From contig NC_134683.1 of assembly GCF_024713945.1 (NCBI RefSeq), positions 622,501 through 686,500 of the forward strand: a DNA stretch of 64,000 bases. Reading direction: 5' to 3'. This DNA comes from Dermatophagoides farinae (lineage: Eukaryota; Arthropoda; Arachnida; Sarcoptiformes; Pyroglyphidae). Below, piece by piece: positions 134-50,820 of this stretch (the stretch's first letter is position 1; each line of letters opens with the position of its first letter). Made by a program: the position numbers and the translations under genes. The notes beneath the pieces were generated by a model that was given only the letters and a program-made list of their open reading frames with translations, did no database searches and was not told the DNA's origin.

Positions 134-1711
134 TTATTTTGAAATGAATGGTCGTCGTTGATTGTAAAACCAATTGAGAAATTCAATAGAATTTTCATTG
201 TTTTGCCGAATACTGTCGGTGATTTCGGGTAACACTTGTTCGATAGTAAGGTGAGCGAGTTTATCGTACAATTTCTTCATTTCGTATTTGTTAATTAATG
301 AAAGATATGTGGTTATAGTTTTTGTATTCAGATCATTCCGGATGAATGTTTTACAATGTTCCATCAATTTTATATCTCCATAACACTTAGCCAGATCAAC
401 AAGTTCGGTTATGTTTAGACGATTAATATGAATTTTACCCGTATGTAACATAAGCAAGTAGGCATAATATGTTTCATACGAATAATCGTCGATGATTACT
501 TGATCATTTTCACTCCAATTACCGGAAAACATTCGTCGATAATATTCCGATACAGATTTGAGATAACATTTACTCGCCTTAATACGTTTTTTGTCAATCA
601 AAAATTCCACATCATAACTATCTTGATTATTGAATAATTGGAGGATTGATTTGGATTGGTACGATATCGAATCATGTGATCCGAATACATGGATTGTTGA
701 TGTGAGACCAAATGTTATTGGTGATGATAGAATCATTGTCGACGCAGAGGCAAATGATGTCGGATGATAATCCAATTTTTTAGGTGATGACCAGTGGCCA
801 TTTTTGCCCCATGCATAATACGATGATCCATCATATACCAATGAAAAGTTGTGAAATTTTGAACATACAATTTGTTGTACATTTTCAATCGGTACTTTTG
901 TCAACTTTGATCGTTCAGAATGATAACCAAGACCAATTTGACCATTGTTACTAGAACCACACCCCCAAAGCTGACGATTTTCGAATAAAAATAATGAATG
1001 ATACATGCCAGCCACAATATCTTTGATTCGTGTTGAATTATCATTTGGAAATGGAACAAGACATGGAGTGTTTCGGTTTTTTCCATCACCAAGTCCTAAT
1101 TGACCATAATTATTAAGGCCCCAGGAATAAATCTCTCCATTATTTGTTATTGAAAAACTATGAAACCGTCCACAAACTATGAGCTGGACATTTTCTAGGT
1201 TATCAATATGGATCATACTTTCCAATGATGATTTTTCATTACCAGTTTTTTGACCATAACTATTATCACCCATAGCGAAAACATGACCATCTTGTCGTAG
1301 CAATAATAAATGGAACTGTCCACAAGCAATCATCTTGAAACAATCATTACCCGTGTTGATTAATTGTAATGTTTTATTCGTTTTCCATTCGCTGGCCAGG
1401 AATACTTGTCCTTGATCAGTTAGAATGGCAACAAATGTGATACCATAATCTACTTGAACAATTTTCACACCATTTAAAACTGATATCCGTTGTGGTTTGC
1501 TCATATCATGTTCCAACGATAACAATGAGCATATTTGTTTACCATATGCCCATGTAGCATCTATGGTCATCAATATAAATTCTTTTTTGTCATCGCAAAT
1601 ATAAAGACTGCAAATTGAAACAATTGATGGGAGATATTCTTGATCAATGTATTTAAAATCATCTTGAAATAAATCAATAATATCGATATATTCAGTCGGT
1701 GATCTTGCCAT
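134..1711 (-). CDS. RCC1-repeat and BTB domain protein, single unit, long C-tail
   Basis: The intronless frame encodes 525 residues. RCC1-type blades run from about residue 40 to 345, with motifs such as YSWGLNNYGQLGLGD and LWGCGSSNNGQIGLG. A BTB/POZ domain follows at about 365-470 (YDVEFLIDKKRIKASKCYL), then about 55 residues of helical tail ending FYNQRRPFISK. In known RCBTB proteins the BTB part contacts cullin-3 and the propeller binds a partner; that role here is inferred. I start at MARSPTEY because every family member begins with MARS or a close variant in the context GATAATGGC; an in-frame ATG 39 bases upstream lies in the conserved leader. It is closest by eye to the gene at 10599-12176. 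Confidence 0.85.
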   Translation of the reverse strand: MARSPTEYIDIIDLFQDDFKYIDQEYLPSIVSICSLYICDDKKEFILMTIDATWAYGKQICSLLSLEHDMSKPQRISVLNGVKIVQVDYGITFVAILTDQGQVFLASEWKTNKTLQLINTGNDCFKMIACGQFHLLLLRQDGHVFAMGDNSYGQKTGNEKSSLESMIHIDNLENVQLIVCGRFHSFSITNNGEIYSWGLNNYGQLGLGDGKNRNTPCLVPFPNDNSTRIKDIVAGMYHSLFLFENRQLWGCGSSNNGQIGLGYHSERSKLTKVPIENVQQIVCSKFHNFSLVYDGSSYYAWGKNGHWSSPKKLDYHPTSFASASTMILSSPITFGLTSTIHVFGSHDSISYQSKSILQLFNNQDSYDVEFLIDKKRIKASKCYLKSVSEYYRRMFSGNWSENDQVIIDDYSYETYYAYLLMLHTGKIHINRLNITELVDLAKCYGDIKLMEHCKTFIRNDLNTKTITTYLSLINKYEMKKLYDKLAHLTIEQVLPEITDSIRQNNENSIEFLNWFYNQRRPFISK

Positions 1712-2295
1712 TATCGATGATGAAAAACACAATAGACACAATATTGACAAACTATATGCGAGAAATTAGTGATGGCACAAAAGAAATGATCAACAAAAAA
1801 TGTCAAATCATTCGATACATTGAAAATTTGTGATAATCACTTAAGACATTATCATCATCATCAAACTTATTGATCAGCAATCAATCAATCAAATAATTTT
1901 CAAAAATTGGGTGGAGATGGAATTTGTTATATGCATCATTTCAATGTAAAAACCATAACGACGACAGTAATCTCAAAAAAAAAAAAAAATTCTCGGAATC
2001 AAATCATGATTGTCGCAATTGAAATGATAATTAAACTCATTGAAAATCATTATCAATTTGATGGGGAAAAAAATCTTTTAATAGAACAAACAGGATTTTT
2101 GCATTAGATCATGGCCAATGTATTTTTTTCCAGGAACTGGGTTATTCCGTTAAAAACAATTGTTGTTGATCGTTGAACCAATTGAGAAATTCAATAGATT
2201 TTTATTTAATTTTATTAAAATTTTTGTGTAAATAAAAAAATCAAATCAATAAATCAATCGAATGATTTGTGATTAAATTCTCGGAAAAGAATAAA
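1712..2295. repeat. Intergenic spacer: shared 5' leader and duplicated block C
   Basis: The part next to the gene (to about 1900) is a leader shared with the genes starting at 20882 and 31207. It includes a GTTTGTCAATATTGTG-like stretch and a later CAATTTGTGATAATCAC-like stretch. From about 1905 to 2170 lies a block (call it C) that recurs at about 21060-21250 and 24115-24400. At about 2165-2205 is a 40-base relic of a family C-terminal coding end (the NQLRNSI/FLNWF region on the minus strand). No gene is seen here: the plus-strand frame at 1907-2107 is only this repeat. Confidence 0.6.
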
Positions 2296-3897
2296 TCATT
2301 TTTCAATGAATGATTGTTGATCATAAAACCAAACAAGAAATTTTAAAGAATTTTCATTGTCACGCAAAAGACTGTCGGTGATTTTGGGCAACATTTTTTC
2401 AATGCAAAGATGAGCAAGTTTGTCATACAATTCTTTAATTTGATATTTTCTAATTAATGAATGATATTTGTTCATTGTTTGTTCATTCAGATCATTTCGT
2501 ATGAATGTTTTACAATATTGCAACAATCGTTGATCACGATAACAATTGGCTAGATCGATTAGTTCGTCAATGTTTTGTGGATTGATTCGAATGGTACCAT
2601 TGTGCAACATACGTAAATATGCATAGTATGTATCATAGCTATACTCATTGATCATTATCTGATTTTTTTCCTTCCAATTATTGGAAAACATTAACAGATA
2701 ATATTCGGAAACCATTTTCAGATAACATTTCCATGCCTTTATGCTTTTCTTACGGACGATAAATTCTACATCATAATTATCTGTGTTATTGAATACATCA
2801 CCGATTGAATGAATGGCCAATTTTGAATCATAAAATTTGAATACATTCGAAATTGTTGTTTGGCCAAATGTGATGGGTGATAATAGAATCATTTCTGATG
2901 CAGCTGCAAATGATTCCGGTTGACCATTCAATTTTCTAGGTGAAAGACAATGGCTATTTTTGGTATTATAACCCCATGAATAATATGATGAACCACCATC
3001 ATAAGCCCATGTGGGTGTATTAAATATCGAACAAACTGCTTTTTGTACTTTTTTTTCAATCATTATTTTCATCGGTTTCGGTCGATTCTTCTGATCACCA
3101 AGACCAAGTTGGCCATCACCATTATGACCACAAGACCAAAGCTGTCCATTTTCGAATAAAAACAATGAATGTTTGTAGCCAGCCACAATATCTTTGATTC
3201 GGTGGTTATCGATTGAATTGTCAAATTTAACAAGAAATGGCATTTTTCTTTTCTTATAATCACCAACACCTAATTGACCACAATCATTTTGGCCCCAGGA
3301 ATAAACTTTTTCCGTATCTGTCACAGCAAGACTATGATGTTTTCCACAAGTAATGAGCTTGATATTTTTTAAACCAATGTTGACCATAGTTTTATATGAT
3401 GATTGATATTTACCAGTAAGTTGACCACAGTGATTTCGGCCCATTGCAAAAACAGTACCATCTTGTCGTAACAATAATAAATGTTTGTATCCACAAGCAA
3501 TCATTTTAAATCGATCATTACCGATATTGATCAATCGACAGGTATTGTTCGTTTGCCAATTATAATCATTACTGGCCAGATACACATGACCATCATCAGT
3601 TAAAATGGTGACAAAATCCAATCCAGAATTGACTTGAATAATTTTCATATCATTTAGAATGGAAATCTTTTGTGGTCTGGTCAAATCATGTTTCAACGAT
3701 AGCCATGAACATATATGTTTGCCATATGCATACGTAGCATCATTGGTCATCAATATAAATTCAATTTTGTTACCTGTTGGTTTGTAAACAATATGGGAGA
3801 AAATTGAACGAATAGTTTGAAGAAATTCACGATCAATAAATTTCAAATTATCTTGAAATAAATCAATATCAATCACATCATTGGATGATTTAGCCAT
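2296..3897 (-). CDS. RCC1-repeat and BTB domain protein, divergent single unit
   Basis: The 533-residue intronless frame has the usual order: N-terminal region (MAKSSNDVIDIDLFQDNL), RCC1 blades to about residue 345 (YSWGQNDCGQLGVGD, LWSCGHNGDGQLGLGD), BTB at about 370-470 (YDVEFIVRKKSIKAWKCYL) and a C-tail ending FYDQQSFIEK. It is clearly less similar to the MARS group and, with the broken genes next to it, forms a more diverged subgroup sharing the QSFIEK/QSFLEK tail and the CIEKMLPK motif. The start could also be an ATG two codons earlier; I prefer the one aligning with MARS. The first half of the gene at 21459-23180 resembles this copy more than its other neighbours. Confidence 0.83.
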   Translation of the reverse strand: MAKSSNDVIDIDLFQDNLKFIDREFLQTIRSIFSHIVYKPTGNKIEFILMTNDATYAYGKHICSWLSLKHDLTRPQKISILNDMKIIQVNSGLDFVTILTDDGHVYLASNDYNWQTNNTCRLINIGNDRFKMIACGYKHLLLLRQDGTVFAMGRNHCGQLTGKYQSSYKTMVNIGLKNIKLITCGKHHSLAVTDTEKVYSWGQNDCGQLGVGDYKKRKMPFLVKFDNSIDNHRIKDIVAGYKHSLFLFENGQLWSCGHNGDGQLGLGDQKNRPKPMKIMIEKKVQKAVCSIFNTPTWAYDGGSSYYSWGYNTKNSHCLSPRKLNGQPESFAAASEMILLSPITFGQTTISNVFKFYDSKLAIHSIGDVFNNTDNYDVEFIVRKKSIKAWKCYLKMVSEYYLLMFSNNWKEKNQIMINEYSYDTYYAYLRMLHNGTIRINPQNIDELIDLANCYRDQRLLQYCKTFIRNDLNEQTMNKYHSLIRKYQIKELYDKLAHLCIEKMLPKITDSLLRDNENSLKFLVWFYDQQSFIEK

Positions 3898-4335: not shown

Positions 4336-5930
4336 TCATTTTTCCAGAAAAGATTGTTCGAAATAAAACCACTGCAAAAATTTTTCCATACAATTTTCTT
4401 TATCATCTGCTAGTAGATTATCGATAATTTTTGGCATTACATTTTCCATTGTAAGATGGCTAATTTTGTTTTGTAAACCAGCGGTACCGATTTCATATCG
4501 TTTTATTAATGGCAAATAATCTATTAATGTTTGTTCATTAAGATCAATGCCAATGAATTTTTTACATTGTTTCTGCAATCGTTCATCACAATAACAATTT
4601 GCTATATCGAATAATTCATCGATATTAGTCTGATCGATACGAATGTAGCCATCGTGTAACCAACGTAGGTAAGCATAGTAAATATCATAACTATAATCTT
4701 TGATGATTACTCGGTTATTTTCACCCCAATCACCAGAAAACATTCGACAAAAATATACTGATGCCATTTTCAGATAACATTTCCATGCACGTATACATTG
4801 TTCACCAATAATAAATTCAACATCGAAATCATCTGGATTATTGAATAATCGGCTAATTGATTGAATGGCTAATAATGGATCATTATATTCAAATACATAG
4901 ATTGTTGATGTCAGGCCAAATGTTATTGGTGATGATAGAATCATGGCCGCTGCAGATGCAAATGACGCCGGTAGACCGTCCAATTTTCTCGGTGATAACC
5001 AATCTCCATTTATGGTTTTACCCCATGCATAATATGAAGATCCATCATGTGCCAATGAAAAATTGTGAAATTTTGAACATGCAATTTTTTGTACATTCTC
5101 AATTGGTATTTTTGTCAACTTTGATTGATTCTTTTTATCACCAAGACCAAGTTCACCAACACTATTAGAGCCACATCCCCAAAGCTGACCATTTTCAAGC
5201 AAGAATAATGAATGATTTGAGCCGGCCCAATATTTTTGATTTTTGTATCGATCGAATCATCATCATCATAGTCCGGAAATTTGACAAGAGCCGCCTTGTT
5301 TCGATCTCGATTATCACCTAGACCCAATTGACCACAATCATTACTACCCCAAGAATAAATTTCACCGGAATTAGTCACAACAATATTATGAAATTGACCG
5401 CAAGCAATAAGTTCAACATTCTCAATACCAGTATTGATCATAGTTCTATATGATGATGGAAAATGGCCAGTTATTTGACCAAAATGATTATCACCCATAG
5501 CGAAAATGGTTCCATCTTGTCGTAGCAATAATAAATGATCGCGTCCACAACGAATCATTTTAAAACGATCACAATTAATCACGTCATCAATTTTCCAATT
5601 ATTCGAATCACTTGCCAGATAAACTTGGCCATCATCGGTCAGAATGGCAACGAAATTTTTTCCCGAATCTATTTGTGCAATTTTCATATCATCAAGGCAT
5701 GATATCCGTTGTGGTTGATTTGGATCATGTTTGAATGATAAATACGAACAAATTCGTTCACCATAAGCATATGTAGCCAAATTGGTGGCGATAAGAAAAT
5801 TGTCATTTTCTTCGAACAATGTGACCAATGCAATTATTGATTTTTCAACAAATTTTTTATCAATTGATTGGAAAAATGAATTTTGAAATAATTCAATTTC
5901 AATAATGTTATCCGGTGATATTGTCGTCAT
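4336..5930 (-). pseudogene. RCC1-BTB gene with a one-base frameshift in the propeller
   Basis: Two overlapping frames together carry one family member. The 5' part starts at MTTISPDNIIEIELFQ and reads RCC1 blades up to KIKNIGPAQ. The 3' part resumes with LENGQLWGCGSNSVGELGLGD and continues through the BTB domain (FDVEFIIGEQCIRAWKCYL) to the tail FEQSFLEK. At about 5227 the sister copies read GTGGCTGGC or similar, where this copy has GGGCCGGC: one base is missing, and the total length (1595) is 3n+2. No other break is visible, so this is either a recent pseudogene, an allele, or a sequencing error. It belongs to the diverged subgroup with the gene at 2296-3897. Confidence 0.75.
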
Positions 5931-6393
5931 ATTTGGATTGGCGAAAGCAGACACACACACACACACATGCACAAATAGATAATATTCCAGGATTAGTGAA
6001 AAATAAATCTGATATGCTGCAAAAAAAAAAAAAAAAAAAAAAAAACAGAAACACCCAAGCATTTGATTTACTATTAGATAATCGCCTTGTAAATTATCGG
6101 CATTTATTTTAACACTAAAACAATGTAATAACAATCAATTTGGGGTGGTAAATAAAGAGAAAAGAAAAATTTTTTGAAATCAAATATCCAATTTGGATCT
6201 GCTTCTTGCTAGTTAATTATTGATAACGATAACGATAATGTATGCAATGACGGAACAGACGCTTTGGCCACAAATATATTGATTGATTACCAATGGATAA
6301 AATTTGAAATTCTAATTATGGTAAAAATAAAAAAAAAAATTAATTATACAATGATATTATTGGATCCCGTGATTAGTAATACATACCGAATCA
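5931..6393. other. Spacer with CA and poly-A tracts
   Basis: About 460 bases between two broken family members. It holds a short CA/TG tract near 5950-5965 and a run of 20-odd A near 6020-6043. The long N-terminal extension that one frame would give the upstream gene here is poly-F from this A run and is not credible. No other feature is seen. Confidence 0.5.
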
Positions 6394-7952
6394 TTATTCA
6401 ATAAAGAATTGTTGATCAAAGAACAAATCAAGAAATTTTAAAGAATTTGCATTGTTTCGCCGAAGATTGTCGGAGGTTTTGGGCAACATTTTTTCGATGC
6501 AAAGATGAGCAAGTTTGCCGTACAATTTTTTAATTCGATGTTTTTAATTAATGGATGATATTTGTTTATTGTATTCTCATTTAGATCATCACTTATGAAT
6601 GTTTGACATTGTTTGATAAATTTTTCATCGCCATGAGAATAGACCAGAGAAATTAATTCGGTTATGTTTTGATGATTAAAACGAATTTCACCCATATGTA
6701 ACATACGTAGATATTCATAGTATGCATCATAGTTATAATCACAGATCGTTACCTCTTTCTTTTCTTTCCAATCACCCGAAAACTTATCATCATAAAATTT
6801 GGATACAGATTTCAAATAACATTTGGACACTTTTATGCGTTTCTCCTCGATAATGAATTCCACATCATAATTGTCTGGATTATCGAATAATTTACAATTT
6901 GATTGAATGGTTGATGTATGATTAGATTCACATAGATTGACGGATGTTAGACTAAATGTGGTTTGTGATTCCAATAACAGAGCTGATGCAGAAGCAAATG
7001 ATGAATGTTGATCATACAATTTTCTAGGTGATGACCATTTGCCATTCTCGCTTTCTCCCCATGCATAATAATTTAATCCATCATGTGCCAATGACAAGTT
7101 TTGGTCTTTTGAACATGCGATTTGTTGCACATTTTCAAACGGTAGTTTGGTCAAAGTTGATTGTCCAATATCATAACCAAGACCAAGTTCACCATTTTCG
7201 TTGGAACCACATCCCCAAAGTTGACCATTTTCAAATAAAAATAAAGAATGATAGTTGCCAGCTACAATATCTTTGATTCGGGTTGAATCAGCATTATGAA
7301 ATGGAACAAGACATGGTGTGTTACGGTTTTTTTCATCACCAAGACCTAATTGACCAAAAACATTATAGCCCCAGGAATAAATTTCACTGGAATTGGTCAC
7401 AACAATACAATGAAATTGACCGCAAGCAATAAGTTTAACATTTTCAATACCAATATTGATCATACATTCACATGATGATTTAATACAAGTTATTTGATCA
7501 CAACCAGTAGCGAAAACATGATCATCTTGTCGCAACATTAATAAATGATAACTTCCACAAGCAATCATCTTGAAACGGTCCTTATCAGTGTTGATTAGTC
7601 GTAATGTTTTACTCGTTTTCCATTTAGTTTCAACATGGCCGGCGAGAAATACTTGTCCTTCATCAGTTAGAATGGCAACAAAATCAGAGCCAGAATCTAC
7701 TTGAACAATTTTTATATCATTCAAAAGTGATATCCATTGTGGTTTGGTCAATTTATTTTCCAACGATAACCATGAACATATTACCTCACCATATGCATAT
7801 GTAGCTTTTTTGGTCATCAATAAAAATTGTTTTTCGTCTTCATAAATAAAGCTGAAAATCTGAATAATTGATTGAAGAAATTTTTGATCAATGTATTTGA
7901 GATCATCTTTGAATAACTCAATATCAATATTATCAGTTGATGAGTTTGCCAT
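6394..7952 (-). pseudogene. RCC1-BTB gene with a frameshifted C-terminus
   Basis: It starts MANSSTDNIDIELFKDDL and keeps the propeller and BTB domain (YDVEFIIEEKRIKVSKCYL) in one frame for about 470 residues. One A appears to be missing in an A run near 6540, at the LIKKYEIKELYDKL position. After that point the family tail continues in the next frame (CIEKMLPK..., ...FDQQFFIE) to a TAA at 6394-6396, while the original frame runs on as unrelated residues to 6438. Total length is 3n+2, as expected for a single loss. The propeller also has a small in-frame shortening near CDQITCIKSS. As the break is past the BTB domain, a slightly altered protein could still be made. Confidence 0.7.
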
Positions 7953-8485: not shown

Positions 8486-10078
8486 TTATTTTGAATGAGT
8501 AGTTGAATGATTGTACCAATTGAGAAATTCAATAGAATTTTCATTGTTTTTCCGAATATTGTCGGTAACTTTCGGTAACACTTGTTCGATAGCAATTTGG
8601 CTTAGTTTATCGTACAATTCCTTCATTTCGTATTTGATAATTAATGGAAGATATGTGGTCATAGTTTGTTCATCCAAATCATTCCATATGAATGTTTTAC
8701 AATGTTTCATCAATTTTATATCACCATAACAGTTGGCCAGATCAACAAGCTCGGTTATGTTTTGATGATTAATATGGATTTCACTAGTATGTAACATAAG
8801 CAAGTAGGCATAATATGTTTCATACGAATAATCATTGATGGTTACTTGGTCATTTTCACTCCAATTACCAGAAAACATTCGACGATAATATTCAGATGCA
8901 GATTTGAGACAGCATTTAAGCGCCTTAATACATTTTTTGTCAATTAAAAATTCCACATCATAATTATCTTGATTATCGAATAATTGAGTGATTAATTTGA
9001 ATTGATACGATTTGGAATCATGTGATCCGAATACATGGATCGTTGATGTGAGACCAAATGTTATTGGTGATGATAGAACCCTTGTCGACGCAGAAGCAAA
9101 TGATGTCGGATGATAATCCAATTTTTTAGGTGATGACCAGTTTTCAATTTCGCCCCATGCATAATACGATGATCCATCATATGCCAATGAAAAATTGTGA
9201 AATGTTGAACATGCAATTTGTTGTACATTTTCAATCGGTATTTTCGTCAACTTTGATCGATTTTTACCACCAAAACCAAGTTCACCATGATAATTACGAC
9301 CACATCCACAAAGCTGACCATTTTCGAATAAAAATAAAGAATGATACTGGCCAGCCGCAATATCTTTGATTCGTATTGAATTATCATTTAGAAATGTAAC
9401 AAGACATGGGGTGTTTCGACTGTTTTCATCACCAAGACCTAATTCACCATGATGATTAGTGCCCCAGGAATAAATTTCTCCATTATTAGTTAATGATAAA
9501 TTATGAAACAATCCACAAGCTATGAGCTTGACATTTTTTAGGTTATCAATGTGGATCATAATTTCATATGACGATTTTTCATTGCCAGTTATTTGACCAA
9601 GTCTATTAGAACCCATAGCGAAAACGTGACCATCTTCTCGTAGCAATAATAAATGCTCACCTCCACAAGCAATCATCTTGAAACGGTCATTATAGTTGGA
9701 AATCAATCGTAATGATTTATTCGTTTTCCATTCAGATGTTTCATTCGCTTTCCATCCAACATTGTTAGCTACGAATACTTGACCTTCATGAGTTAGAATG
9801 GCAACAAAATCGAAGCCAGAATCTACTTGAACAATTTTCTTATAATTTAAACGAGATATCCGTTGTGGTTTGTCATAATCATGTGTCAACGATAAACATG
9901 AGCATATTACTACACCATATGCATATGTAGCGTCTTTGGTCATCAATAAAAATTGTTTTAGTTCACCGAAGTAAAAGCTGAAAATCGAAACAACTGATTG
10001 GAGGAATTCTTGATCGATGTATTGGAAATCATTTTGAAATAACTCAATATCGATATTTTCAGTCTGTGATCTTGCCAT
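8486..10078 (-). CDS. RCC1-repeat and BTB domain protein, single unit, long C-tail
   Basis: The 530-residue intact frame starts MARSQTENIDIELFQNDF. RCC1 blades span about residues 40-350 (YSWGTNHHGELGLGD, LCGCGRNYHGELGFGG), the BTB domain about 370-475 (YDVEFLIDKKCIKALKCCL), then the helical tail. The last residues differ from the usual FYNQRRPFISK and read YNHSTTHSK, probably by a small local change near the stop. The first blade region carries a roughly ten-residue insertion relative to its sisters, in which NETSEWKTNK looks like a repeat of the neighbouring NVGWKANE segment. Confidence 0.85.
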   Translation of the reverse strand: MARSQTENIDIELFQNDFQYIDQEFLQSVVSIFSFYFGELKQFLLMTKDATYAYGVVICSCLSLTHDYDKPQRISRLNYKKIVQVDSGFDFVAILTHEGQVFVANNVGWKANETSEWKTNKSLRLISNYNDRFKMIACGGEHLLLLREDGHVFAMGSNRLGQITGNEKSSYEIMIHIDNLKNVKLIACGLFHNLSLTNNGEIYSWGTNHHGELGLGDENSRNTPCLVTFLNDNSIRIKDIAAGQYHSLFLFENGQLCGCGRNYHGELGFGGKNRSKLTKIPIENVQQIACSTFHNFSLAYDGSSYYAWGEIENWSSPKKLDYHPTSFASASTRVLSSPITFGLTSTIHVFGSHDSKSYQFKLITQLFDNQDNYDVEFLIDKKCIKALKCCLKSASEYYRRMFSGNWSENDQVTINDYSYETYYAYLLMLHTSEIHINHQNITELVDLANCYGDIKLMKHCKTFIWNDLDEQTMTTYLPLIIKYEMKELYDKLSQIAIEQVLPKVTDNIRKNNENSIEFLNWYNHSTTHSK

Positions 10079-16881: not shown

Positions 16882-16986
16882 TTGAAAAGGATTAGTTGTA
16901 ACCGTGGATTTTCAATTCAATTACATACCTGTTTGTTTTTTTTTAAATAAACTTTATTTACCCCTATATCTTAACAAAAAAAAGGA

Positions 16987-31207: not shown

Positions 31208-31828
31208 TGTCGATAATGGAAAACACTCGAATTATAGACAAAATGATTGACAAACGAGAATATGCGAGAATTAGTGATGGCAGAAAAGAGATGATCAACA
31301 AAAAAATGCCAAATCATTTGATACATTGACAATTTGTGATAATTACCTGTGATATTATCATCATTATTTACATTAAAAATGTATTGGTTCTATCTATCTA
31401 TCTATCTATCTAAGCAGTTTATCATCATCACTGATGTATTGCGTTTGTGTTTGGTGCCCGTTTATGATTAATCATAATCATCATTCACATTGAAAACATT
31501 CCTGATAAATAACCATAGGCTAAAAGTAATACTCCGTGCATGAGAAAAAAAAACATCGGAAGGCACAAAGCGTTAAGATTTACAGCTTTGATTGAATACC
31601 AAGTTGGTTCCAACCAGCCACCTCTCTTGCGGGTATCCAATTTTATTGACTGTCAACGTCTGAGAAAATGTTTATACTTGTTGCTCTGTATGTTCTGTAT
31701 ATGATAATGATAAAATAATTCCAAAGATCAATCATTTTATTTATTGGGTTAATCACAAATTTAAAAAAAAGTCACAAGATTATCTGTTGTTTGTCATTGA
31801 TAAAAAATCGATCATCTAATCAATTTGA
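31208..31828. other. Spacer between the left array and the scavenger receptor gene
   Basis: The first 170 bases are the shared family leader of the four-unit gene. A TATC tetranucleotide repeat lies at 31391-31411. Two overlapping AATAAA signals for the minus-strand receptor gene lie at 31736-31745, about 90 bases after its stop. The rest holds nothing recognisable. Confidence 0.6.
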
Positions 31829-40659: not shown

Positions 40660-41164
40660 CTGTGGTGGGAAAAAAAAATTTAAAATCAAAATGAATAGAA
40701 AAAAAATTCAATGGAAAATTTCTTCTTTCAGAATCACATTCGCCAACCAAGTAACTAAAGAACCAGCAGACCATAATAATGACATATTTGATTGCCATTG
40801 AATTATGGGTTATGATGATGATTATATTTCATTCGAATTCATTTTATTCAATGTAAATTTTATTTTATTTTTTTTCAAAAACGAAAAAACACAATCAGCA
40901 ATGTGAAAATTTTACAAATTGAGGATCATTTTATCATCATTTTTTTTATTGGTCTGATTTATGAATTGGATGAATGGATGGAAAAGTTTTCGGCAATTAT
41001 CGAATGAAAAAGCGAGAAAATTGCCATTTATTTATATACTATAGTATATGAAGATACACAATTGTTTATCATTTATTTTTGGCTCGTCACTAATTCTCGA
41101 ATATTCTCGTTTGTCAATCATTTTGTCTATATTTCGATTTTTCGAGTGTTTTCCATCATCGATA
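40660..41164. other. Divergent spacer between the polyQ gene and the right array
   Basis: Between a minus-strand gene and the first plus-strand family gene. The last 100 bases before the start at 41165 are the conserved family leader (TTCTCGTTTGTCAATCATTT ... CATCATCGATAATGGC). Just upstream is a TTTATATACT stretch that could serve as a TATA box; it overlaps the 16-base palindrome at 41034-41049. Two short coding-like stretches on the minus strand at about 40740-40798 could belong to a first exon of the polyQ gene, but I see no good donor. Confidence 0.45.
41031..41049 (+). promoter_or_regulatory. Candidate TATA region with a 16-base palindrome
   Basis: TTTATATA followed by the perfect palindrome ATATACTATAGTATAT (41034-41049), about 115-130 bases before the start codon of the first right-arm gene. 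It is a plausible core promoter, but AT-rich sequence makes such matches common. Confidence 0.35.
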
Positions 41165-42691
41165 ATGGCAAGATCAGCGACTGAAACTATCGATATTAAT
41201 TTATTTCAAGATGATTTCAAAAACATCGATCAAAAATTTCTACAATCAGTTGTTTCGATTTGCGGTCTTTATACTTACGAAGACAAAAAACAATTTTTAT
41301 TGATGACCGATGAAGCTACATATGGATATGGTAAACAAATATGCTCATGGTTATCGTTAAAACATGATATGAGCAAACCCCAACGGATATCACTTTTAAA
41401 TGATATGAAAATCTTTCAAGTAGATTATGGTCGTGATTTTGTTGCCATTCTAACTAAGGATGGACAAGTATTCTTAGCCAGCGATGTTGATTCTATGTGG
41501 AAAACAAAGAGAACATTACGATTGATCTCCACTAATAATGATCGTTTCAAGATGATTGCTTGTGGATACTTCCATTTATTAATGTTACGAGAAGATGGTC
41601 ATGTTTTCGCTATGGGTTCTAATTTTCGTGGTCAAATAACTGGTAATGAAATATCATCATATGAAAGTATGATCCAGATTGAAAACCAAGAAAATGTAGA
41701 GCTCATAGCTTGTGGAGCGGGTCATAGTTTTTCAATAACTAATAAAAGAGAAATTTATGCTTGGGGCGATAATGATTTTGGTCAATTAGGTTTTGGTGAA
41801 AGAAAAAAACGAAACACCCCATGTCTTGTTGCATTTCAAAATGATGATTCAACACAAATCAAAGATATTGTGGCTGGTTACGGAAATTCATTATTTTTAT
41901 TCGAAAATGGTCAGCTTTGGGGATGTGGTTATAATTATAATGGTGAACTTGGTTTTGATAATTATAATTATCGATCAAAGTTGACAAAAATACCGATTGA
42001 AAATGTACAACAAATTAAAAGTTCAAAATTCCATTTCTTTTCAATGGCATATGATGGATCATCTTATTATGTATGGGGAGAAACCAAATATGACAAATGG
42101 TCATCACCTAAAAAATTGGATTATCATCTGACATCATTTGCTTCTGCATCGACAATGATTCTATCCACACCAATCACATTTGGTCTCACATCAACAATCC
42201 ATCTATTCGGATCACATGATTCAATATCGTACCAATTAAAATTAATCACTCAATTATTCGATAATCAAGATAATTATGATGTGAAATTCATAATTGACAA
42301 AAAATGTATTAAGGCGATTAAATGCTGTCTCAAATCTGCTTCGGAATATTTTGGTCGAATGTTTTCCGGTAATTGGATTGAAAATGACCAAGTAATCATC
42401 AACGATTATTCATATGAAACATATTATGCATATCTACGCATGTTACATTTTGGTACAATTCATATTAATCATCAGAACATTATCGAACTTGTTGATCTTG
42501 CAAACTGTTATGGTGATGAAAAATTAATGAAATATTGTAAAACATTCATACGAAATGATTTGGACGATCAAACTATGTCTACATATCTTTCATTAATCAA
42601 CAAATATGAAATCAAGGAATTGTATGAAAAACTTGCTCATCTGTACAAAAATCCCCAACAATCTTCAACAAAACGAAGAAAATTTTTTTAA
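41165..42691 (+). CDS. RCC1-repeat and BTB domain protein, single unit, short C-tail
   Basis: 508 residues from MARSATETIDINLFQDDF. Blades include YAWGDNDFGQLGFGERKKRN and LWGCGYNYNGELGFDN. The BTB domain starts near residue 365 (YDVKFIIDKKCIKAIKCCL). The protein ends with the short tail YKNPQQSSTKRRKFF shared with the multi-unit genes. The 39-codon in-frame extension upstream is leader sequence and lacks counterparts. A 151-base segment of its propeller is nearly identical to the neighbouring gene at 43884. It is the only single-unit member with the short tail, so it may resemble the building block of the fusions. Confidence 0.86.
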   Translation: MARSATETIDINLFQDDFKNIDQKFLQSVVSICGLYTYEDKKQFLLMTDEATYGYGKQICSWLSLKHDMSKPQRISLLNDMKIFQVDYGRDFVAILTKDGQVFLASDVDSMWKTKRTLRLISTNNDRFKMIACGYFHLLMLREDGHVFAMGSNFRGQITGNEISSYESMIQIENQENVELIACGAGHSFSITNKREIYAWGDNDFGQLGFGERKKRNTPCLVAFQNDDSTQIKDIVAGYGNSLFLFENGQLWGCGYNYNGELGFDNYNYRSKLTKIPIENVQQIKSSKFHFFSMAYDGSSYYVWGETKYDKWSSPKKLDYHLTSFASASTMILSTPITFGLTSTIHLFGSHDSISYQLKLITQLFDNQDNYDVKFIIDKKCIKAIKCCLKSASEYFGRMFSGNWIENDQVIINDYSYETYYAYLRMLHFGTIHINHQNIIELVDLANCYGDEKLMKYCKTFIRNDLDDQTMSTYLSLINKYEIKELYEKLAHLYKNPQQSSTKRRKFF

Positions 42692-43883
42692 ACTTTCATT
42701 GCTTTTACCATCAAAAATCATTCATTCGATAATAATTCCAGTGTAAAAAAATTAAATTAAAAATTTTCTTTATCATTTTTCTTTTCTGTATTTTGATCAA
42801 TAAATAAATCAAATTCTTAATCAAAACAATTCAAATGACTTAGTTTTATTTTCGCTTTACCAATACCATCCATTTGGATAACAATGAAAAAAAACAATCA
42901 ATTTTCATAATCAAATTCATCATCAATTGGTCATCGATAATGATAATCAACATAACACGCCGCTTTTCTTCAAATCGCTCCTGAACAGTCGTCATTTGAA
43001 ATATTTTTGCAAAATTTTGAACAATTATTCCTATCACCACAAAATACAATAATCTCAAATGAACTTGATACCTCGAGTCTCTAGAGGTCAAAGGACAAAA
43101 AATTGTCAGTCCTTACAGCGAAGAGGTATACAAAAATTGGCATTTTTTTCAAAAAAAAAACTATTCCATTTTTCTCTCTTTTTCTGAGGTTTTGATAAAA
43201 ATCAAAGTGGTGCAAAATGGTTTCCCAACATAAAAACCACCAAAAAATCGAAAAAGATGGCTGTTCCGTTTCCTTAACAGTCGTATATTAACATTATGAA
43301 TTTCTATGTAAGAAATAGCTATGCGTTATACATGTGATGTCCTAAAATGGACATCGATTTTATTCTTTTTGAATTGGCCAGGAAACGAAGAATTGGACTG
43401 GCAAAAACCAGCGTGGAAAAAACGTGGCCATGTGTCACAGACTTATTTTCAGGGCCCGAAAAAAACTTTGGACTTGTCCACCACTTTCGATCAAGGACGG
43501 TGGTAAATATGAGTAGCAAAACAATCACCGAACACATGGTCTATGTGACAAGTGGCGTGGTCAAACCGATTGGCAGTTGGATAGTTGGAAAAATCATATA
43601 AAAGTCCATGTCACACAAGCAATCATCAAATCATCACTTCGGATCATTTTTGCTGGCTGGCCGTTTTATTTTTCCAACACCAGTATTTTCATTTTTACAA
43701 TATTAAATTTTCTCATATTTTTAAATCTGTGCTGTGTGAATACGCATGTGTTAACTTCGTCCACTAAGAACACTATTCATATGCTCACGTCACGCAATTG
43801 TTGATCATTTCTTTTCTGCTGTCACTAATTCTCGCCTATTTTCGTTTGTCAATATTGTGTCTATGTGTTTTTGATCATCGATA
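42692..43883. repeat. Inverted copies of blocks F and A, with leader
   Basis: Directly behind the stop comes block F (about 42692-43090), then block A (about 43265-43640), then the leader of the next gene with a degenerate CRE (TCACGTCA at 43785-43792). The order relative to the genes is the same as at 12177-13216 on the other strand. An AATAAA signal lies at 42799-42804. The short frames over block A follow the repeat. Confidence 0.7.
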
Positions 43884-46871
43884 ATGGCAAGATCACCCAA
43901 TGAAAATATCGATATTGAATTATTCCAAAAGGATTTCCAATACATCGATCAAGAATTTCTCCAATCCGTCATTTCGATTTTCAGCTTTACCTTCAATCTC
44001 GCAAAACAATTTTTATTGATGACCCAAAAAGCAACATATGCATATGGTGAAAATATATGCTCGTGGTTATCATTGGAACATAATATGGCCGAGCCACAAC
44101 GGATATCACTTTTAAATGATGTGAAAATTGTTCAAGTAGATAATGGATGTAATTTTGTTGCCATTCTAACTGATGATGGACAAGTATTCCTAGCCAGCTT
44201 AGTTGAATCTAAATGGGAAACGAATGAAACATTACGATTGATTTCCAACCATAATGATCGTTTCAAGATGATTGCTTGTGGAGTGACGCATTTGTTATTG
44301 CTACGACAAGATGGTCATGTTTTCGCTATGGGTAAAAATGAATTTGGTCAATTAACTGGCAATGAAAAATCATCATATGAAAGTATGATCCACATTGATA
44401 ACCTAGAAAATGTCAAGTTCATAGATTGTGGACAGTATCATAGTTTATCATTAACTAATAAAGGCAAAATTTATTCCTGGGGTGACGATAATTGTGGTCA
44501 ACTAGGTCTTGGTTATGAATCAGACGGAAAAACCCCATGTCTTGTAAATGTTGATTCGATCGATAGCCGTGTCAAAGATATTGTGGCTGGCGACAATCAT
44601 TCATTAGTTTTATTCGAAAATGGTCAGCTTTGGGGATGTGGTTCTAATTATCAAGGTGAACTTGGTTTTGATAATTATAATAATCGATCAAAGTTGACAA
44701 AAATACCGATTGAAAATGTACAACAAATTAAAAGTTCAAAATTCCATTTCTTTTCAATGGCATATGATGGATCATCTTATTATGTATGGGGAGAAACCAA
44801 ATATGGCATCTGGTCGTCACCTAAAAGATTGGATGATCATCCGACGTCATTTGTATCTGCATCGGCAATGATTTTTTCATCACCACTAACATTTGGTCTC
44901 ACATCAACAATCTATGTATTCGGATCACATGATTCAATATCGTACCAATCCAAATCAATCCTCCAACTATTCGATAATCAAGATAGTTATGATGTGGAAT
45001 TTTTAATTGACCAGAAACCTATTAAGGCATGCAAATGTTATCTCAAATCTGTATCGGAATATTATTGTCGAATGTTTTCCGGTAATTGGAGTGAAAATGA
45101 CCAAGTAATCATCAACGATTATTCATATGATACATACTATGCATATCTACGTATGTTACATACTTGTGAAATTCACATTAATCCTCAAAACATAGCCGAA
45201 CTTGTTGATTTGGCCAATTGTTATGGTGATGAAATGTTGATGAAACATTGTAAAACATTCATATGGAATAATCTGAATGAACAAACTATACCAACATATC
45301 GTACATTAATTAACAAATACGAAATTAAGGAATTGGACTATAAACTCAGAAATATGATAAAATCAACGGCTGAAAAAATCGATATTGATTTATTTCATGG
45401 CTATTTAGTATACATTGATCGAGAATTTTTCCAATCAGTTGTTTCGATTTTCAGCTTTTTTCCTTTATTTCATGAAATTGAATTTTTATTTATGATCGAA
45501 GGAGCTACATATGCATATGGTAAAATAATATGCTCATGGTTATCGTTGGAACATGATATGAGGAAACCACAACGGATATCTTGTCTTGATGATATGAAAA
45601 TTGTTCAAGTAGATTCTGGCTGGAATTTTGTTGCCATTCTAACTGATGATGGACAAGTATTCCTAGCCAGCAATGGTTTTAATTGGAAGACGAAAGATAC
45701 ATTACAATTGATTTCCAACGATAATGATCGTTTCAAAATGATTGCTTGTGGATGTGAGCATTTATTAATGCTGCGACAAGATGGCCATGTTTTTGCTATT
45801 GGATCTAATATGTGTTCTACATTATCGGGTAATAGAAAATCATCATATGAAAGTATGATCCACATTGATGGACTAGAAAATGTGGAACACATAGCTTGTG
45901 GAGATTATCATAATTTATCAGTAACGAATAAAGGAGAGATTTATTCCTGGGGCCTTAATATTTTCGGTCAATTAGGTCTTGGTGATGAAAAAATACGAAA
46001 CACCCCATGTCTTATTCCATTTCCAAATGATTTGATCAATATCCGAATCAAGGATGTTTTAGCTGTCCGCAGACATTCATTATTTTTATTCGAAAATGGT
46101 CAGCTTTGGGGTTGTGGTCCTAATGGCTATTGTCAGCTTGATCTTTTTAATGGAAAGATACAATCAAAGTTGACAAAAATACCGATTGAAAATGTACAAC
46201 AAATTGCATGTTCAAAATTCTTCAGATATTCATTTGCATATGATGGATCATCGTATTATGCTTTGGACGAAAAGATATATGTTGGACTATGGGCATCACC
46301 TAGAAAATTGGATGATTCGCATTCATCATTTGCTTCTGCATCATTTCAAGTATTGAATTCACCACACACATTCGGTTTAACATCAACAATCCATGAATTC
46401 GAATCACATGATCTAATATCATACATGATGATTATGATGTGGAATTTCTAATTGTACGAATCAATCCTCCAATTATTCGATAATCAAGATAATTATGATG
46501 TGGAATTTCTAATTGACAAAAAACGTATTAAGGCATGCAAATGTTATCTCAAATATGTATCGGAATATTATCGACGAATGTTTTCCGGTAATTGGATTAA
46601 AAAGGATCAAGTACCCATCGAGAATTATTCATATGAAACATATTATGCATATGTAAATATGTTACATACTGGTGAAATTCATATTAATCATCAAAACATA
46701 ACCGAACTTGTTGATTTGGCCAATTGTTATGGTGATGAACGGTTGATGAAACATTGTAAAACATTCATACAGAATAATCTAAATAAACAAACTATGCCCA
46801 CATTGCTTCCATTAATCAACAAATACGAAATGAATGAATTGTATGCCAAACTTGCTCATATTAGCATTTAA
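43884..46871 (+). pseudogene. Two-unit RCC1-BTB gene interrupted by an in-frame stop
   Basis: Unit 1 (residues 1-490, MARSPNENIDIELFQKDF) is complete with its BTB domain. Unit 2 starts at M491 (MIKSTAEKIDIDLFHGYL), and its propeller reads to HDLISY. There an in-frame insertion of about 33 bases brings a TAA at 46449-46451; beyond it the BTB domain (YDVEFLIDKKRIKACKCYL) continues in the same frame to 46871. The insertion holds a 24-base copy (46431-46454) of sequence found just downstream at 46492-46515. The usual short tail is also eroded: it stops after KLAHISI, with further stops in the sequence matching QSSTKRRKFF. An 855-residue product with one BTB domain is still possible, so it may be a truncated gene and not a dead one. 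Confidence 0.75.
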
Positions 46872-47775
46872 AAAGTATTTCGCCATAATCGTCGACAATC
46901 TTAAACAAAACGAAGAAAATTTTTTGTAAACTTTCTTGACTAGTTTTTTCATTGTTTTAAAAAAAAATTAAAATTAAAAATTTACTTTATCATTTTTCTT
47001 TTCAATTTTGATCAATAATAAAAAATTTCAATATACAAAAATTGGCATTTTTTTCCAAAAAAAAACTATTTCATTTTTCTCTCTTTTTCTGAAGTTTTGA
47101 TAAAAATCAAAGTGATACAAAATGGTTTTCCAACATAAAAACCACCAAAAAAAATCGACCAATGGGGCTGTTCCGTTTCCTGATCACGCCATATATTAAC
47201 ATTATGAATTTCTATGTAAGAAATAGCTATAGCTATTTAATTCTTTTTCCTCTTGCTGAATTGACAGGAAAGCAAAGAATTGGACTGACAAAAACGTGGC
47301 CATTTATTTTCAGGGACCGGAAAAATTTTCCAGTCGTCCACCACTTTCGATCAAGGACAATGATAAAGTGATTTTTGCTAATATGCACCTTCTAGGACTG
47401 GCATATGAGTAGCAAAACAATCATTCAAACACATGGTCTACGTGACAAATGGTGTGATCAAACTGAATGGCAGTTGGACGGTCCGAAAAATCATATAAAA
47501 TTCCATGCCACACAAGCAATCATCAAGTCATCACCACAAACATTTTGTTTTTTTTTATTTTTCCAACACCTGTATTTTCATTTTTACAATATTAAATTTT
47601 CTCATATTTTTAAATCTGTGTTGTGTGTGAATACGCATGTGTTAACTTCGTCAACCAAGAACGCTATACATATACAATACATGACGTCACGCAATTGTTG
47701 ATCATTTCTTTTCTGCCGGCACTAATTATCGCATTTTTCGTTTGTCAATATATCGAGTGTTTTTCATCATCGATA
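46872..47775. repeat. Spacer with block A and the CRE-bearing leader
   Basis: It contains the decayed tail of the upstream gene, an A-rich stretch, block A (about 47160-47530, inverted relative to the left arm) and the leader of the next gene. Small differences from the other block A copies include a short insertion near 47370-47400. No gene is supported. Confidence 0.6.
47682..47689. promoter_or_regulatory. CRE-like palindrome in the family leader
   Basis: TGACGTCA in the context ATGACGTCACGCAATTG, 87-94 bases before the start at 47776. The surrounding CACGCAATTGTTGATCATTT stretch is shared with the 18541-18561 copy and, with changes, with 43785-43810, so it is an inherited part of this leader type. 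Confidence 0.5.
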
Positions 47776-50700
47776 ATGGCGAGATCACAGACTGATATTA
47801 TCGATATTGAGTTATTTCAAGATGATTTCAAAAACATCGATCAAAAATTTCTTCAATCAGTTGTTTCAATTTTTAGCTTTTTTACTTTCAAATGGTCCTT
47901 TAAAAAACAATTTTTATTGATGACCGAAAATGCTACATATGCATATGGTGATGAAATATGCTCATGGTTATCGTTGAAACATGATTTGACCAAACCACAA
48001 CGGATATCTTGTCTTGATGATATGAAAATTGTTCAAGTAGATTCTGGCCATGATTTTGTTGCCATTCTAACTGATGATGGACAAGTATTCATAGCCAGCG
48101 ATGTTGATTCTAATTGGAAAACAAAGAGAACATTACGATTGATTTCCAACGATAATGATCGTTTCAAGATGATTGCTTGTGGATGGTTGCATTTATTATT
48201 GCTCAAACAAGATGGTCATGTTTTTGCTATGGGTGATAATAATTGGGGTCAAATAACTGGTAATGAAATATCATCATATGAAATCATGATCCACATTGAT
48301 AACCTAGAAAATGTCAAGTTCATAGCTTGTGGAAAGCACCATAGTTTTTCAATAACAAATAAAGGAGAAATTTATTCCTGGGGCCTTAATTATTGGCATC
48401 AATTAGGTCTTGATGATGATGAAAACCGAAACGTCTCATGTCTTGTTGCATATCCTAATGCTTATTCAACCCGCATCAAAGATATTATGACTGGCAACTA
48501 TCATTCATTATTTTTATTCGAAAATGGTCAGCTTTGGGGATGTGGATCTAATAGCCTTGGTGAACTTGGTCTTGGTAATTATATTAAACGATCAACGTTG
48601 GCAAAAATACCAATTAAAAATGTCAAACAAATTACATGTTCAAGAGACCATTCATTTTCATTGGCATATGATGGATCATCGTACTATGCATGGGGCAGAA
48701 CCAAATATGGCATATGGTCATCACCTAAAAAATTGAATGATTCGCATTCATCATTTGTAGCTGCATCAGTTCATGTATTGGATTCACCAATCACATTTGG
48801 CCTCACATCAATGATCCGTGAATTCGGTTCACGTGATCAAATATCGTACAAATCAATCATCCAATTATTCGATAATCAACATAGTTATGATGTGGAATTT
48901 ATATTTGACAAAAAACGTATTAAGGCGAGTAAATGTTATCTCCAATCTGTATCGGAATATTATCGTCTAATGTTTTCGGGTAATTGGATTGAAAATGGCG
49001 AAGTACCCATCAAGAATTATTCGTATGATACATACTATGCATATCTACGTATGTTACATACGGGTAATATTTATATTAATCGTCAAAACATAACCGAACT
49101 TGTTGATCTGGCCTATTGTTATGGTGATATAAAATTAATTGAATATTGTCAAACATTCATACGGAGTGATCTAAATGAACAAACTATGACCACATATCTT
49201 TTATTAATCACCAAATACGAAATGAATGAATTAGACGGTAAACTGAGAAACAAGATATTAGCAAAATCACCGACTGAAAATATAATCGATATTGATTTAT
49301 TTCAAAACGATTTCAAAAAGATTGATCAAGAATTTCTCCAATCAGTTGTATCAATTTTCAGCTTTACCTTCGATGACAAAAAACAATTTTTATTGATGAC
49401 CAAAGATGCTACATATGCATATGGTAAACAAATATGCTCATGGTTATCGTTGGAACATGATATGAGCAAACCACAACGGATATCTTGTCTTGATGATATG
49501 AAAATCATTCAAGTAGATTCTGGCTGGAATTTTGTTGCCATTCTAACTGATGATGGTCGAGTGTATCTGGCAAGCAATAATTTTTATTGGAATAATACTC
49601 TCCCATTAACCTACAGCTCAGATTACTATATTATTAAAACTAATTGGAAAACGAATGAAACATTACGATTGATTTCCAACGATAATGACCGTTTCAAGAT
49701 GATTGCTTGTGGATGGTTGCATTTATTATTATTACGACAAGATGGTCATGTTTTCGCTATGGGTGATAATAGTTATGGTCAAATAACTGGTAATGAAAAA
49801 TCATCATTTGAAAGTATGATCCACATTGATAACCTAGAAAATGTCGAGCTCATAGTTTGTGGACGGTTTCATAGTTTATCAATAACCAATAATGGTGAGA
49901 TTTATTCCTGGGGTGATAATACTTGTGGTCAATTGGGTCTTGGTGATGGAAAAAATCGAAAAACCCCATGTCTTGTTGCATTTCCTAATGCTGATTTGAT
50001 CAATATCCGAATCAAAGATATTGTGGCTGGCATGTATCATTCATTATTTTTATTCGAAAATGGTCAGCTTTGGGGATGTGGTTCTAATAAATATGGTGAA
50101 CTTGGTCTTGGTGGTCATTTTAAACGATCAAAGTTGACAAAAATACCGATTGAAAATGTCAAACAAATTGCATGTTCAAGAAACCATTCATTTTCATTGG
50201 CACATGATGGATCATCGTATTATGCATGGGGCGATACCAAATATGGCATATGGTCACCTAAAAAATTGGATGGTCATCCGACATCATTTGCTTCTGCATC
50301 AGTTCATGTATTGGATTCACCAATCACATTTGGCCTCACATCAATCCATGTATTCGGATCACATGATTCGATATCGTACAAATCAATCCTCAAATTATTC
50401 GATAATCAAGATAGTTATGATGTGAAATTTATAATTGACAAAAAAGATATCAAGGCATGCAAATATTATCTAAAATCTGTATCGGAATATTATCGTCGAA
50501 TGTTTTCCTGTAATTGGATTGAAAATGGCAAAGTACCCATCAAGAATTATTCATATGAAACATACTATGCATATCTACGTATGTTACATACGGGTAATAT
50601 TTATATTAATCGTCAAAACATTACCGAACTTGTTGATCTGGCCAATTGTTATTGTGATATAAAATTAATTGAATATTGTCAAACATTCATACGGAGTGAT

Positions 50701-50820
50701 CTAAATGAACAAACTATGACCACATATCTTTCATTAATTTACATACACGAAATGAAGAAATTGTATGACAAACTTGTTCATCTTGCCAAAAATTGCCAAC
50801 AATATTCAACAAAACAATGA
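47776..50820 (+). CDS. Two-unit RCC1-BTB fusion protein
   Basis: 1014 residues in one intact frame. Unit 1 (1-494) starts MARSQTDIIDIELFQDDF; unit 2 starts at residue 495 (LAKSPTENIIDIDLFQND), where the ancestral methionine has become leucine. Both have RCC1 blades (YSWGLNYWHQLGLDDD, YSWGDNTCGQLGLGDG) and BTB domains (YDVEFIFDKKRIKASKCYL, YDVKFIIDKKDIKACKYYL). The end is the short tail KNCQQYSTKQ. The first blade of unit 2 has an insertion of about 20 residues (around NNTLPLTYSSDYYIIK). The 51-codon extension upstream of MARS is leader sequence. The BTB-to-tail parts of the two units are very alike (TGNIYINRQNITELVDLA in both). Confidence 0.86.
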   Translation: MARSQTDIIDIELFQDDFKNIDQKFLQSVVSIFSFFTFKWSFKKQFLLMTENATYAYGDEICSWLSLKHDLTKPQRISCLDDMKIVQVDSGHDFVAILTDDGQVFIASDVDSNWKTKRTLRLISNDNDRFKMIACGWLHLLLLKQDGHVFAMGDNNWGQITGNEISSYEIMIHIDNLENVKFIACGKHHSFSITNKGEIYSWGLNYWHQLGLDDDENRNVSCLVAYPNAYSTRIKDIMTGNYHSLFLFENGQLWGCGSNSLGELGLGNYIKRSTLAKIPIKNVKQITCSRDHSFSLAYDGSSYYAWGRTKYGIWSSPKKLNDSHSSFVAASVHVLDSPITFGLTSMIREFGSRDQISYKSIIQLFDNQHSYDVEFIFDKKRIKASKCYLQSVSEYYRLMFSGNWIENGEVPIKNYSYDTYYAYLRMLHTGNIYINRQNITELVDLAYCYGDIKLIEYCQTFIRSDLNEQTMTTYLLLITKYEMNELDGKLRNKILAKSPTENIIDIDLFQNDFKKIDQEFLQSVVSIFSFTFDDKKQFLLMTKDATYAYGKQICSWLSLEHDMSKPQRISCLDDMKIIQVDSGWNFVAILTDDGRVYLASNNFYWNNTLPLTYSSDYYIIKTNWKTNETLRLISNDNDRFKMIACGWLHLLLLRQDGHVFAMGDNSYGQITGNEKSSFESMIHIDNLENVELIVCGRFHSLSITNNGEIYSWGDNTCGQLGLGDGKNRKTPCLVAFPNADLINIRIKDIVAGMYHSLFLFENGQLWGCGSNKYGELGLGGHFKRSKLTKIPIENVKQIACSRNHSFSLAHDGSSYYAWGDTKYGIWSPKKLDGHPTSFASASVHVLDSPITFGLTSIHVFGSHDSISYKSILKLFDNQDSYDVKFIIDKKDIKACKYYLKSVSEYYRRMFSCNWIENGKVPIKNYSYETYYAYLRMLHTGNIYINRQNITELVDLANCYCDIKLIEYCQTFIRSDLNEQTMTTYLSLIYIHEMKKLYDKLVHLAKNCQQYSTKQ

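Follow-up and report, generated by a model that had tools for sequence, protein, structure and literature searches.

A stretch of 64,000 nucleotides from the 62.4-Mb, 22-contig genome of the mite Dermatophagoides farinae (contig C7, positions 622501-686500, hereafter the window) holds part of a large array of genes in which an RCC1 beta-propeller is followed by a BTB domain. On balance, we favour the view that this array is a diversifying, birth-and-death family of BTB-type cullin-3 substrate receptors, the propeller being the presumed recognition part and the BTB domain the presumed ligase docking part. Loop codons that recur from blade to blade of the propeller change far faster than the rest of the unit, the cullin-3 contact motif of the BTB domain is kept in nearly all units, and several genes are in-frame chains of complete units, whose number differs between duplicated loci. 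All comparisons reported here are among paralogues within this one genome. Positions without a contig name are those of the window, counted from its first letter.

Extent of the array

Units were annotated from the open reading frames (ORFs) listed for the window and with a hidden Markov model (HMM) built from seven of its units; a unit was called full when its match started at or before position 15 of the HMM and ended at or after position 485. The whole genome was searched with the Pfam profiles PF00415 (RCC1) and PF00651 (BTB), 150 of the 278 RCC1 candidates being scored, so that RCC1 counts from this search are lower bounds. The window contains 19 units in 13 loci, exactly as counted in an earlier note on this DNA, and ORFs and HMM also bear out the strand split given there: ten loci with 14 units on the minus strand (134-31207), and three loci with five units on the plus strand (41048-50820). 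Seventeen of the 19 units are full. The other two are broken: the minus-strand locus 4336-6134 is spread over two frames (N-terminal propeller part at 5229-5918, remaining propeller and BTB at 4342-5229), and the second unit of a two-unit fusion on the plus strand (43884-46868) is interrupted between propeller and BTB, with a stop after 46448 and a BTB match again from 46458. Full units are single open frames in the ORF listing.

The earlier note had described two divergent arms. These prove to be an effect of the window edge, as the cluster starts about 90 kb to the left and covers C7:531.8-673.3 kb, with 40 full units in three blocks of alternating strand (plus at 531.8-556.0 kb, minus at 578.4-653.7 kb, plus at 663.5-673.3 kb). 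Within it, at C7:601006-604512, one unit is apparently split, with about 2 kb between its propeller and BTB parts. Two further clusters lie on the same contig, at C7:1985-2003 kb (7 full units) and C7:2228-2234 kb (3 full units), bringing the family to 50 full and 9 broken units, about 59, in three clusters. The HMM annotation comprised 70 rows, of which 20 were partial: three fall in a gene of the window with RCC1 repeats only, described below, and 17 in the nine broken units, which were grouped manually.

Outside the 59 units, we found a piece at C9:218 kb, a remnant at C7:2886 kb, and an RCC1 cluster at C7:3766-3770 kb. The latter (C7:3766605-3770272) consists of three ORFs with RCC1 matches, none with a BTB match in the genome searches, and may contain BTB-less members of the family. 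Three RCC1+BTB genes also lie apart from the clusters, at C7:1054 kb, C4:134 kb and C6:1458 kb; the most array-like is that at C4:134 kb, which scores 264 bits with the unit HMM. In a tree of the 50 full units with this gene as outgroup, the middle branches were poorly resolved and a few recent pairs appeared, several of which lie in segmental duplicates. A group with full support united the three units from the cluster at C7:2228 kb.

The unit and its cullin-3 contact motif

In each unit, an RCC1 propeller of about 340 residues precedes a BTB domain, as defined by Pfam. The scan covered seven array proteins, five of them from minus-strand loci of the window, the others being 41048-42691 and a member of the C7:2228 kb cluster, and both domains were above the Pfam cut-off in all seven; with E-values reaching 1e-199, chance or low-complexity ORFs were rejected. 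For the remaining loci of the window, recognition came from the unit HMM and the two genome searches. Beyond the BTB domain, there are two main C-terminal types. The long one closes with NWFYNQRRPFISK or a similar sequence; the short one has SSSKRTKFF or the like at its end, or continues into the next unit. The basic-aromatic tail of the short type is conserved in several units (SSSKRTKFF and variants, for instance at 42662-42691), and might be a localisation or docking signal.

By sequence, the closest solved structures are UVR8 for the propeller (E 1.7e-47) and, for the BTB domain, KLHL22, a receptor of the cullin-3-RING ubiquitin ligase, CRL3 (PMC11074293). The phi-x-E motif, defined as a cullin-3 contact in the alpha3-beta4 region of BTB domains (PMC3616122), has W as its first residue in 50/50 full units and reads WxE in 47. 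In the unit that serves as reference for site numbers (10599-12176, minus strand, 525 residues; ORF, Pfam and unit HMM), it is WSE, residues 399-401, at 10974-10982 of the minus strand as computed from the ORF start at 12176, and is presumed to be the cullin-3 contact. The concern of the earlier note that contact residues might be lacking throughout is thereby removed. By analogy with known receptors, each unit, if expressed, would dock on cullin-3 through WxE while holding on its variable face a target to be ubiquitinated. Cullin-family genes are present in the genome, cullin-3 itself not being told apart among them.

Three features sit less easily with docking on cullin-3. The E of phi-x-E is replaced by K in 3/50 units. 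Next, while the alignment with KLHL22 continues beyond the BTB core, the C-terminal extension is absent from short units and from internal units of fused genes. Finally, no BACK domain passed the Pfam cut-off in the seven array proteins scanned, in which it was listed once, at E 0.14. This last point would suit a BTB domain that only dimerises, attached to a propeller acting on Ran, chromatin or lipids, and RCC1 propellers do have other roles too. Yet the retention of phi-x-E argues against a family without ubiquitin adaptors, as does the association with cullin-3 of the known RCC1+BTB proteins RCBTB1 and IBtk-alpha (PMC10216830, PMC4447969), and we consider such a family improbable.

Fast-changing loops on the propeller

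Ranked by column entropy over the 50 full units, the only ones tested, nine of the ten most variable sites fall at loop positions repeated from blade to blade. These positions are two residues in GxxH, one in GxN and two in NxxG, and make up a set of 19 codons, called the face below. The residues found at variable sites span many chemical classes. Among the most variable sites are the two inner residues of GxxH, exemplified in the reference unit by residues 238-239, at 11460-11465 on the minus strand (computed from the same ORF start).

For pairwise tests, pairs were limited to a proportion of synonymous differences (pS) below 0.30, which placed 44/50 units in 22 disjoint closest pairs; three units crossing locus borders were outside alignment A1 but inside these pairwise analyses. 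Over the 22 pairs, the face accumulated 361 non-synonymous and 41 synonymous differences, and its ratio of non-synonymous to synonymous proportions (pN/pS), taken with the gene-wide pS, was 2.91 (bootstrap 2.57-3.26). By the same measure, the non-face propeller stood at 0.80, the BTB domain at 0.64 and the tail at 0.85. The face ratio became 2.36 with the pS of the class itself, 3.05 over the 13 pairs with pS<0.15, and 2.39, 2.91 or 3.46 at kappa 1, 2 or 4. Shifting the set by one codon lowered it to about 1.6, and larger shifts to 0.3-1.3. None of 50000 random 19-codon sets from the propeller reached the face value (maximum 2.03), and all eight motif groups exceeded 1.6, the last blade being weakest. 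When the 19 most variable propeller sites were chosen on the 33 units outside the window, they gave 2.80 on 8 window pairs; reciprocally, sites chosen on window units gave 2.91 on 14 outside pairs. Among the sites so chosen, 12/19 and 13/19 respectively coincided with the motif-defined set.

Codon models were also fitted. Under MGK, with a fixed tree and scaled branches, the face had an omega of 2.90, the other propeller codons one of 0.52 and the BTB domain one of 0.54, and twice the difference in log-likelihood (2 delta lnL) between the face estimate and omega=1 was about 39.6 (kappa grid). MG with free branches gave 2.85 for the face. The blade-repeated loops would then be under diversifying selection, and the earlier note's idea of fast-changing cullin-3 adaptors holds in so far as loop codons, at a pN/pS of about 2.9, part from the BTB domain at 0.64 and the contact motif is kept; the role it proposed, in defence or protein quality control, stays conjectural. 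Faces were distinct in 49/50 units, and two units differ at a median of 15/19 face sites for a DNA identity of about 81%. As the face loops diversify, nearly every unit would thus present a binding surface of its own on a common scaffold.

Other results pull away from a selected face set apart from a constrained remainder. With GY and free branches, the face omega was 1.69 (2 delta lnL about 7.3), and with GY and scaled branches it was 1.30 and not significant, although GY fitted the face much worse than MG (-2588 vs -2455). Fitted face tree lengths were very long in all codon-model runs, and exchange between units complicates tree-based tests. Fast change extends beyond the face: pN/pS was 1.01 in the N-terminal 60 codons and 0.87 over the whole gene, and the 40 fastest sites by pN/pS comprise 16 face sites and 24 others, which are spread over further loops of the propeller, the N-terminus and the BTB domain (38, 39, 57, 108, 290, 344 and 357 among them). 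The BTB domain itself is not strongly conserved: its median pairwise DNA identity, 0.81, is the same as that of the propeller, its pN/pS on window pairs is 0.80, and its MGK omega is similar to that of the non-face propeller. Moreover, the 19 sites were first recognised by eye in the same sequences, which the shift, random and split controls offset only partly.

Some of these results, namely the high gene-wide pN/pS and the failure of GY with scaled branches to reject omega=1 for the face, together with the nine broken units, would be expected of relaxed or near-neutral decay in a multigene family, with recombination expanding the family and loops drifting. We nevertheless hold this to be very improbable: face pN/pS is about 2.7-2.9, above neutral, in two separate data halves, fused frames of up to 1997 codons stay open, and the W of phi-x-E is invariant.

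The alignment with UVR8 bears on where the variable sites lie. In a phmmer alignment, reference residues 287-288 fall on W233-R234 of UVR8, and residues 201, 203 and 204 on W94, D96 and F97; the UVR8 numbering was derived from chain positions, with an offset chosen to put W233 and W94 on tryptophans. In UVR8, W233, W285, W337 and W94 of the partner monomer are at the dimer interaction surface (PMC9546227). Since the hypervariable sites align with such positions, they probably occupy one exposed face of the propeller, a placement that depends on the UVR8 alignment. The same correspondence with a homodimer surface could indicate that the face serves for self-association, as it does in UVR8, and diverges without any outside target, under the pressure against cross-pairing that many co-resident paralogues would create. 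Insulation of this kind has little probability in our eyes: 49 distinct faces spanning many chemical classes are more than avoiding a few partners seems to require, and units within one fused ORF differ at 11-16/19 face sites (six fused ORFs compared).

Fused genes

Seven ORFs contain two to four units in frame (983, 1489, 1013, 1997, 858, 1068 and 1037 codons), the second unit of the 858-codon one being broken. The largest fusion of the window (25238-31207, minus strand, 1989 residues; ORF, Pfam and unit HMM) joins four propellers and four BTB domains within a single ORF, with its units at 29729-31207, 28238-29719, 26774-28240 and 25277-26767. Two-unit in-frame fusions are found at 13217-16234 (minus strand, 1005 residues; ORF and Pfam) and at 47776-50820 (plus strand, 1014 residues), where the internal unit begins with TTA and not ATG.

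All internal junctions (10/10) occur at one place, after KLRN, KLRNKI or the like and just ahead of the MARSP-like sequence with which the following unit starts. Some 20 bases upstream of the start codon, in many units that stand first or single, we read by eye the stretch gtgtttttcatcatcgata or a close variant; a similar stretch is missing before all nine internal units listed, and the ATG is replaced by ATA or TTA in two of these nine. With the upstream stretch missing and some ATG lost, the internal units can hardly be separate genes, and internal starts making separate proteins were rejected on these grounds and for want of any stop between units. As for gtgtttttcatcatcgata, common to many array genes, it may be a promoter or translation element. 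A single origin of all fused units is neither shown nor excluded by the tree, which needs four label changes, and the shared junction site favours few origins.

Such genes would have arisen by loss of the stop and of the upstream sequence between neighbours, resulting in chains of two to four receptors, and chains with different faces could act as multivalent or internally dimerised adaptors. BTB receptors function as dimers (PMC3616122, PMC11074293), so that the BTB domains of a two- or four-unit chain could pair among themselves, the chain then showing two different faces; a three-unit ORF (C7:611196-615662) shows that even unit numbers are not required. How two to four BTB domains of one chain would assemble with cullin-3 is a mechanical question that these genes raise.

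Exchange and turnover among units

We suppose that the diversity of the array stems from tandem and segmental duplication, exchange between units, and point changes. Exchange is clear at 19281-20882 (minus strand, single unit, 533 residues), a mosaic when compared with its neighbour 21459-23180 (minus strand, single unit of 573 residues with an insertion in the C-terminal propeller part; ORF and unit HMM). Between the two, BTB DNA is 98% and propeller DNA 75% identical, the change occurring near codon 260-320. At other loci, exchange is suggested by a donor search on eight pairs, run without a null: in 6/8 pairs, there are 30-codon windows for which a third unit is a match at 95% or more and a better one than the partner. 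No long donor tract was found by this search for the three- and four-unit ORFs.

These two ORFs, the three-unit one and the four-unit one of the window, lie in duplicate blocks of this assembly. Both flanks of the blocks are 95-100% identical, except for 88% in the comparison window beside the ORF start, whereas the ORFs are about 79-90% identical, except in the last BTB region (98-100%), and no cross pair of units exceeds 0.892 identity. With near-identical flanks around diverged ORFs, unit number and propeller sequence have turned over, unless the flanks were homogenised later. Coding DNA differs more than non-coding DNA in two of three block pairs (5.6 vs 2.6%, and 11.4 vs 2.0%); the third, shorter pair is reversed (3.4% coding vs 5.7% non-coding). 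The two loci (C7:611196-615662 and C7:647741-653731, the latter being 25238-31231 of the window) could be an exchange hot spot or an allelic pair.

Flanks so close to identity are what alleles could show, and part of the array, namely the blocks spaced by roughly 40 kb with the three- and four-unit ORFs, might accordingly be an assembly artefact placing two alleles in tandem. We judge this unlikely, while granting it more weight than the alternatives discussed above. Most units are far more diverged than alleles, with a median synonymous divergence (dS) of 0.36, and the family itself can therefore not be an artefact. If the blocks were alleles, the array would be polymorphic in unit number, which would be equally interesting.

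Comparison with known adaptor families

The MATH-BTB and F-box families of nematodes are ubiquitin adaptors with fast birth and death, in which positive selection acts on the substrate-binding and not on the cullin-binding part (PMC4334554). As in these families, the mite recognition domain would be under positive selection and the BTB domain not, the effect being restricted to part of the propeller and weaker under GY. Unlike them, the mite family has an RCC1 propeller as recognition part, many of its variable sites are loops repeated blade by blade, and several of its genes fuse two to four complete receptors. A nematode-like adaptor signature would thus be found in an arthropod on a different recognition fold, and with many of the variable residues recurring from one blade to the next, prediction and direct testing of the recognition face become feasible.

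Vertebrates have two RCBTB genes, and RCBTB1 and RCBTB2 share domain order and a similar length with the mite units. The mite differs from them by its about 59 hypervariable units in three clusters, without a BACK match over the cut-off in the seven proteins scanned; by domain content only, the gene at C7:1054 kb is a candidate counterpart of RCBTB1/2. Human RCBTB1 co-precipitates with CUL3 and UBE2E3 (PMC10216830). IBtk-alpha, in which RCC1 and BTB domains are likewise combined, acts as a substrate receptor of cullin-3, its substrate binding being located in the C-terminal region and not in the RCC1 part (PMC4447969). With it and S. pombe Btb1, mite fusions have in common RCC1 repeats and two BTB domains in one chain; in contrast to IBtk-alpha, where ankyrin repeats accompany a single RCC1 region and two BTB domains, they repeat the whole propeller+BTB unit two to four times.

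UVR8 is a plant UV-B receptor without BTB. It provides both the closest solved propeller by sequence and a dimer surface that aligns with the mite hypervariable sites, but the tryptophans of its three GWRHT motifs are conserved, whereas the corresponding kind of position is hypervariable in the mite. Human allergy makes this animal important as a major allergen source, but of its own immunity little is known. Among the matches listed in open-licence literature, no paper on mite RCC1-BTB genes turned up, which is not proof that there is none, and neither RCC1 nor BTB occurs as a word in the main text of PMC12105342, PMC12364353 or PMC6806590.

What such receptors would recognise is a further step. 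Defence, with foreign or rapidly changing targets, is plausible and the likeliest single role, even though we put it below even odds. The diversification might instead stem from genetic conflict inside the mite, be it through toxin-antidote elements, competition among sperm or eggs, or drive, as tandem birth and death with fast evolution of substrate sites could also arise there, and a paper on nematode toxin-antidote elements uses the word F-box 54 times. Nothing here favours conflict over defence, and we regard it as quite unlikely, a little less so than the lack of adaptor function or paralogue insulation. Tentatively, and with rather less confidence than for the cullin-3 receptor reading as a whole, the array can be seen as a germline repertoire for recognition that uses the RCC1 propeller as its base. 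The scaffold would be fixed and the face combinatorially variable, kept diverse by exchange and diversifying selection and tied to ubiquitin ligation, and fused genes would be chains carrying several different faces.

Other loci of the window and side observations

The other minus-strand loci are single units. That at 134-1711 (525 residues; ORF, Pfam and unit HMM) is of the long C-terminal type, and that at 2296-3897 (533 residues; same evidence) is a near-copy of C7:585152-586744. At 6438-7952, a unit of 504 residues was scored full, its C-terminal tail having diverged from that of its duplicate partner, and another at 8486-10078 (530 residues) was recognised by ORF and unit HMM. On the plus strand, the single unit at 41048-42691 (ORF, Pfam and unit HMM) is of the short type and ends in SSTKRRKFF.

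Between minus- and plus-strand loci lies a core (31.8-40.7 kb of the window), which the earlier note had called single-copy. Non-array genes do occur there, such as a CD36-family gene in pieces on the minus strand (31829-33311), with a Pfam CD36 match on the ORF 32544-33311 and its C-terminal part, recognised by eye, on the ORF 31829-32476. RCC1 is however not absent from the core, as a minus-strand gene (34997-36451, Pfam) codes for an RCC1-repeat protein of 484 residues with an S/N/H/K-rich C-terminus and without a BTB match. Among allergen-like genes outside the window, a group 21 gene agrees with Der f 21 at every one of 112 residues, from EDKW to the C-terminus, which points to D. farinae or a very close relative; group 2-like and papain-like genes showed no close fit to a Dermatophagoides sequence in the PDB. 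Elsewhere in the genome, at C6:4883586-4889723, ORFs for papain-like cysteine peptidases stand in tandem, and the one compared was only distantly like Der f 1.

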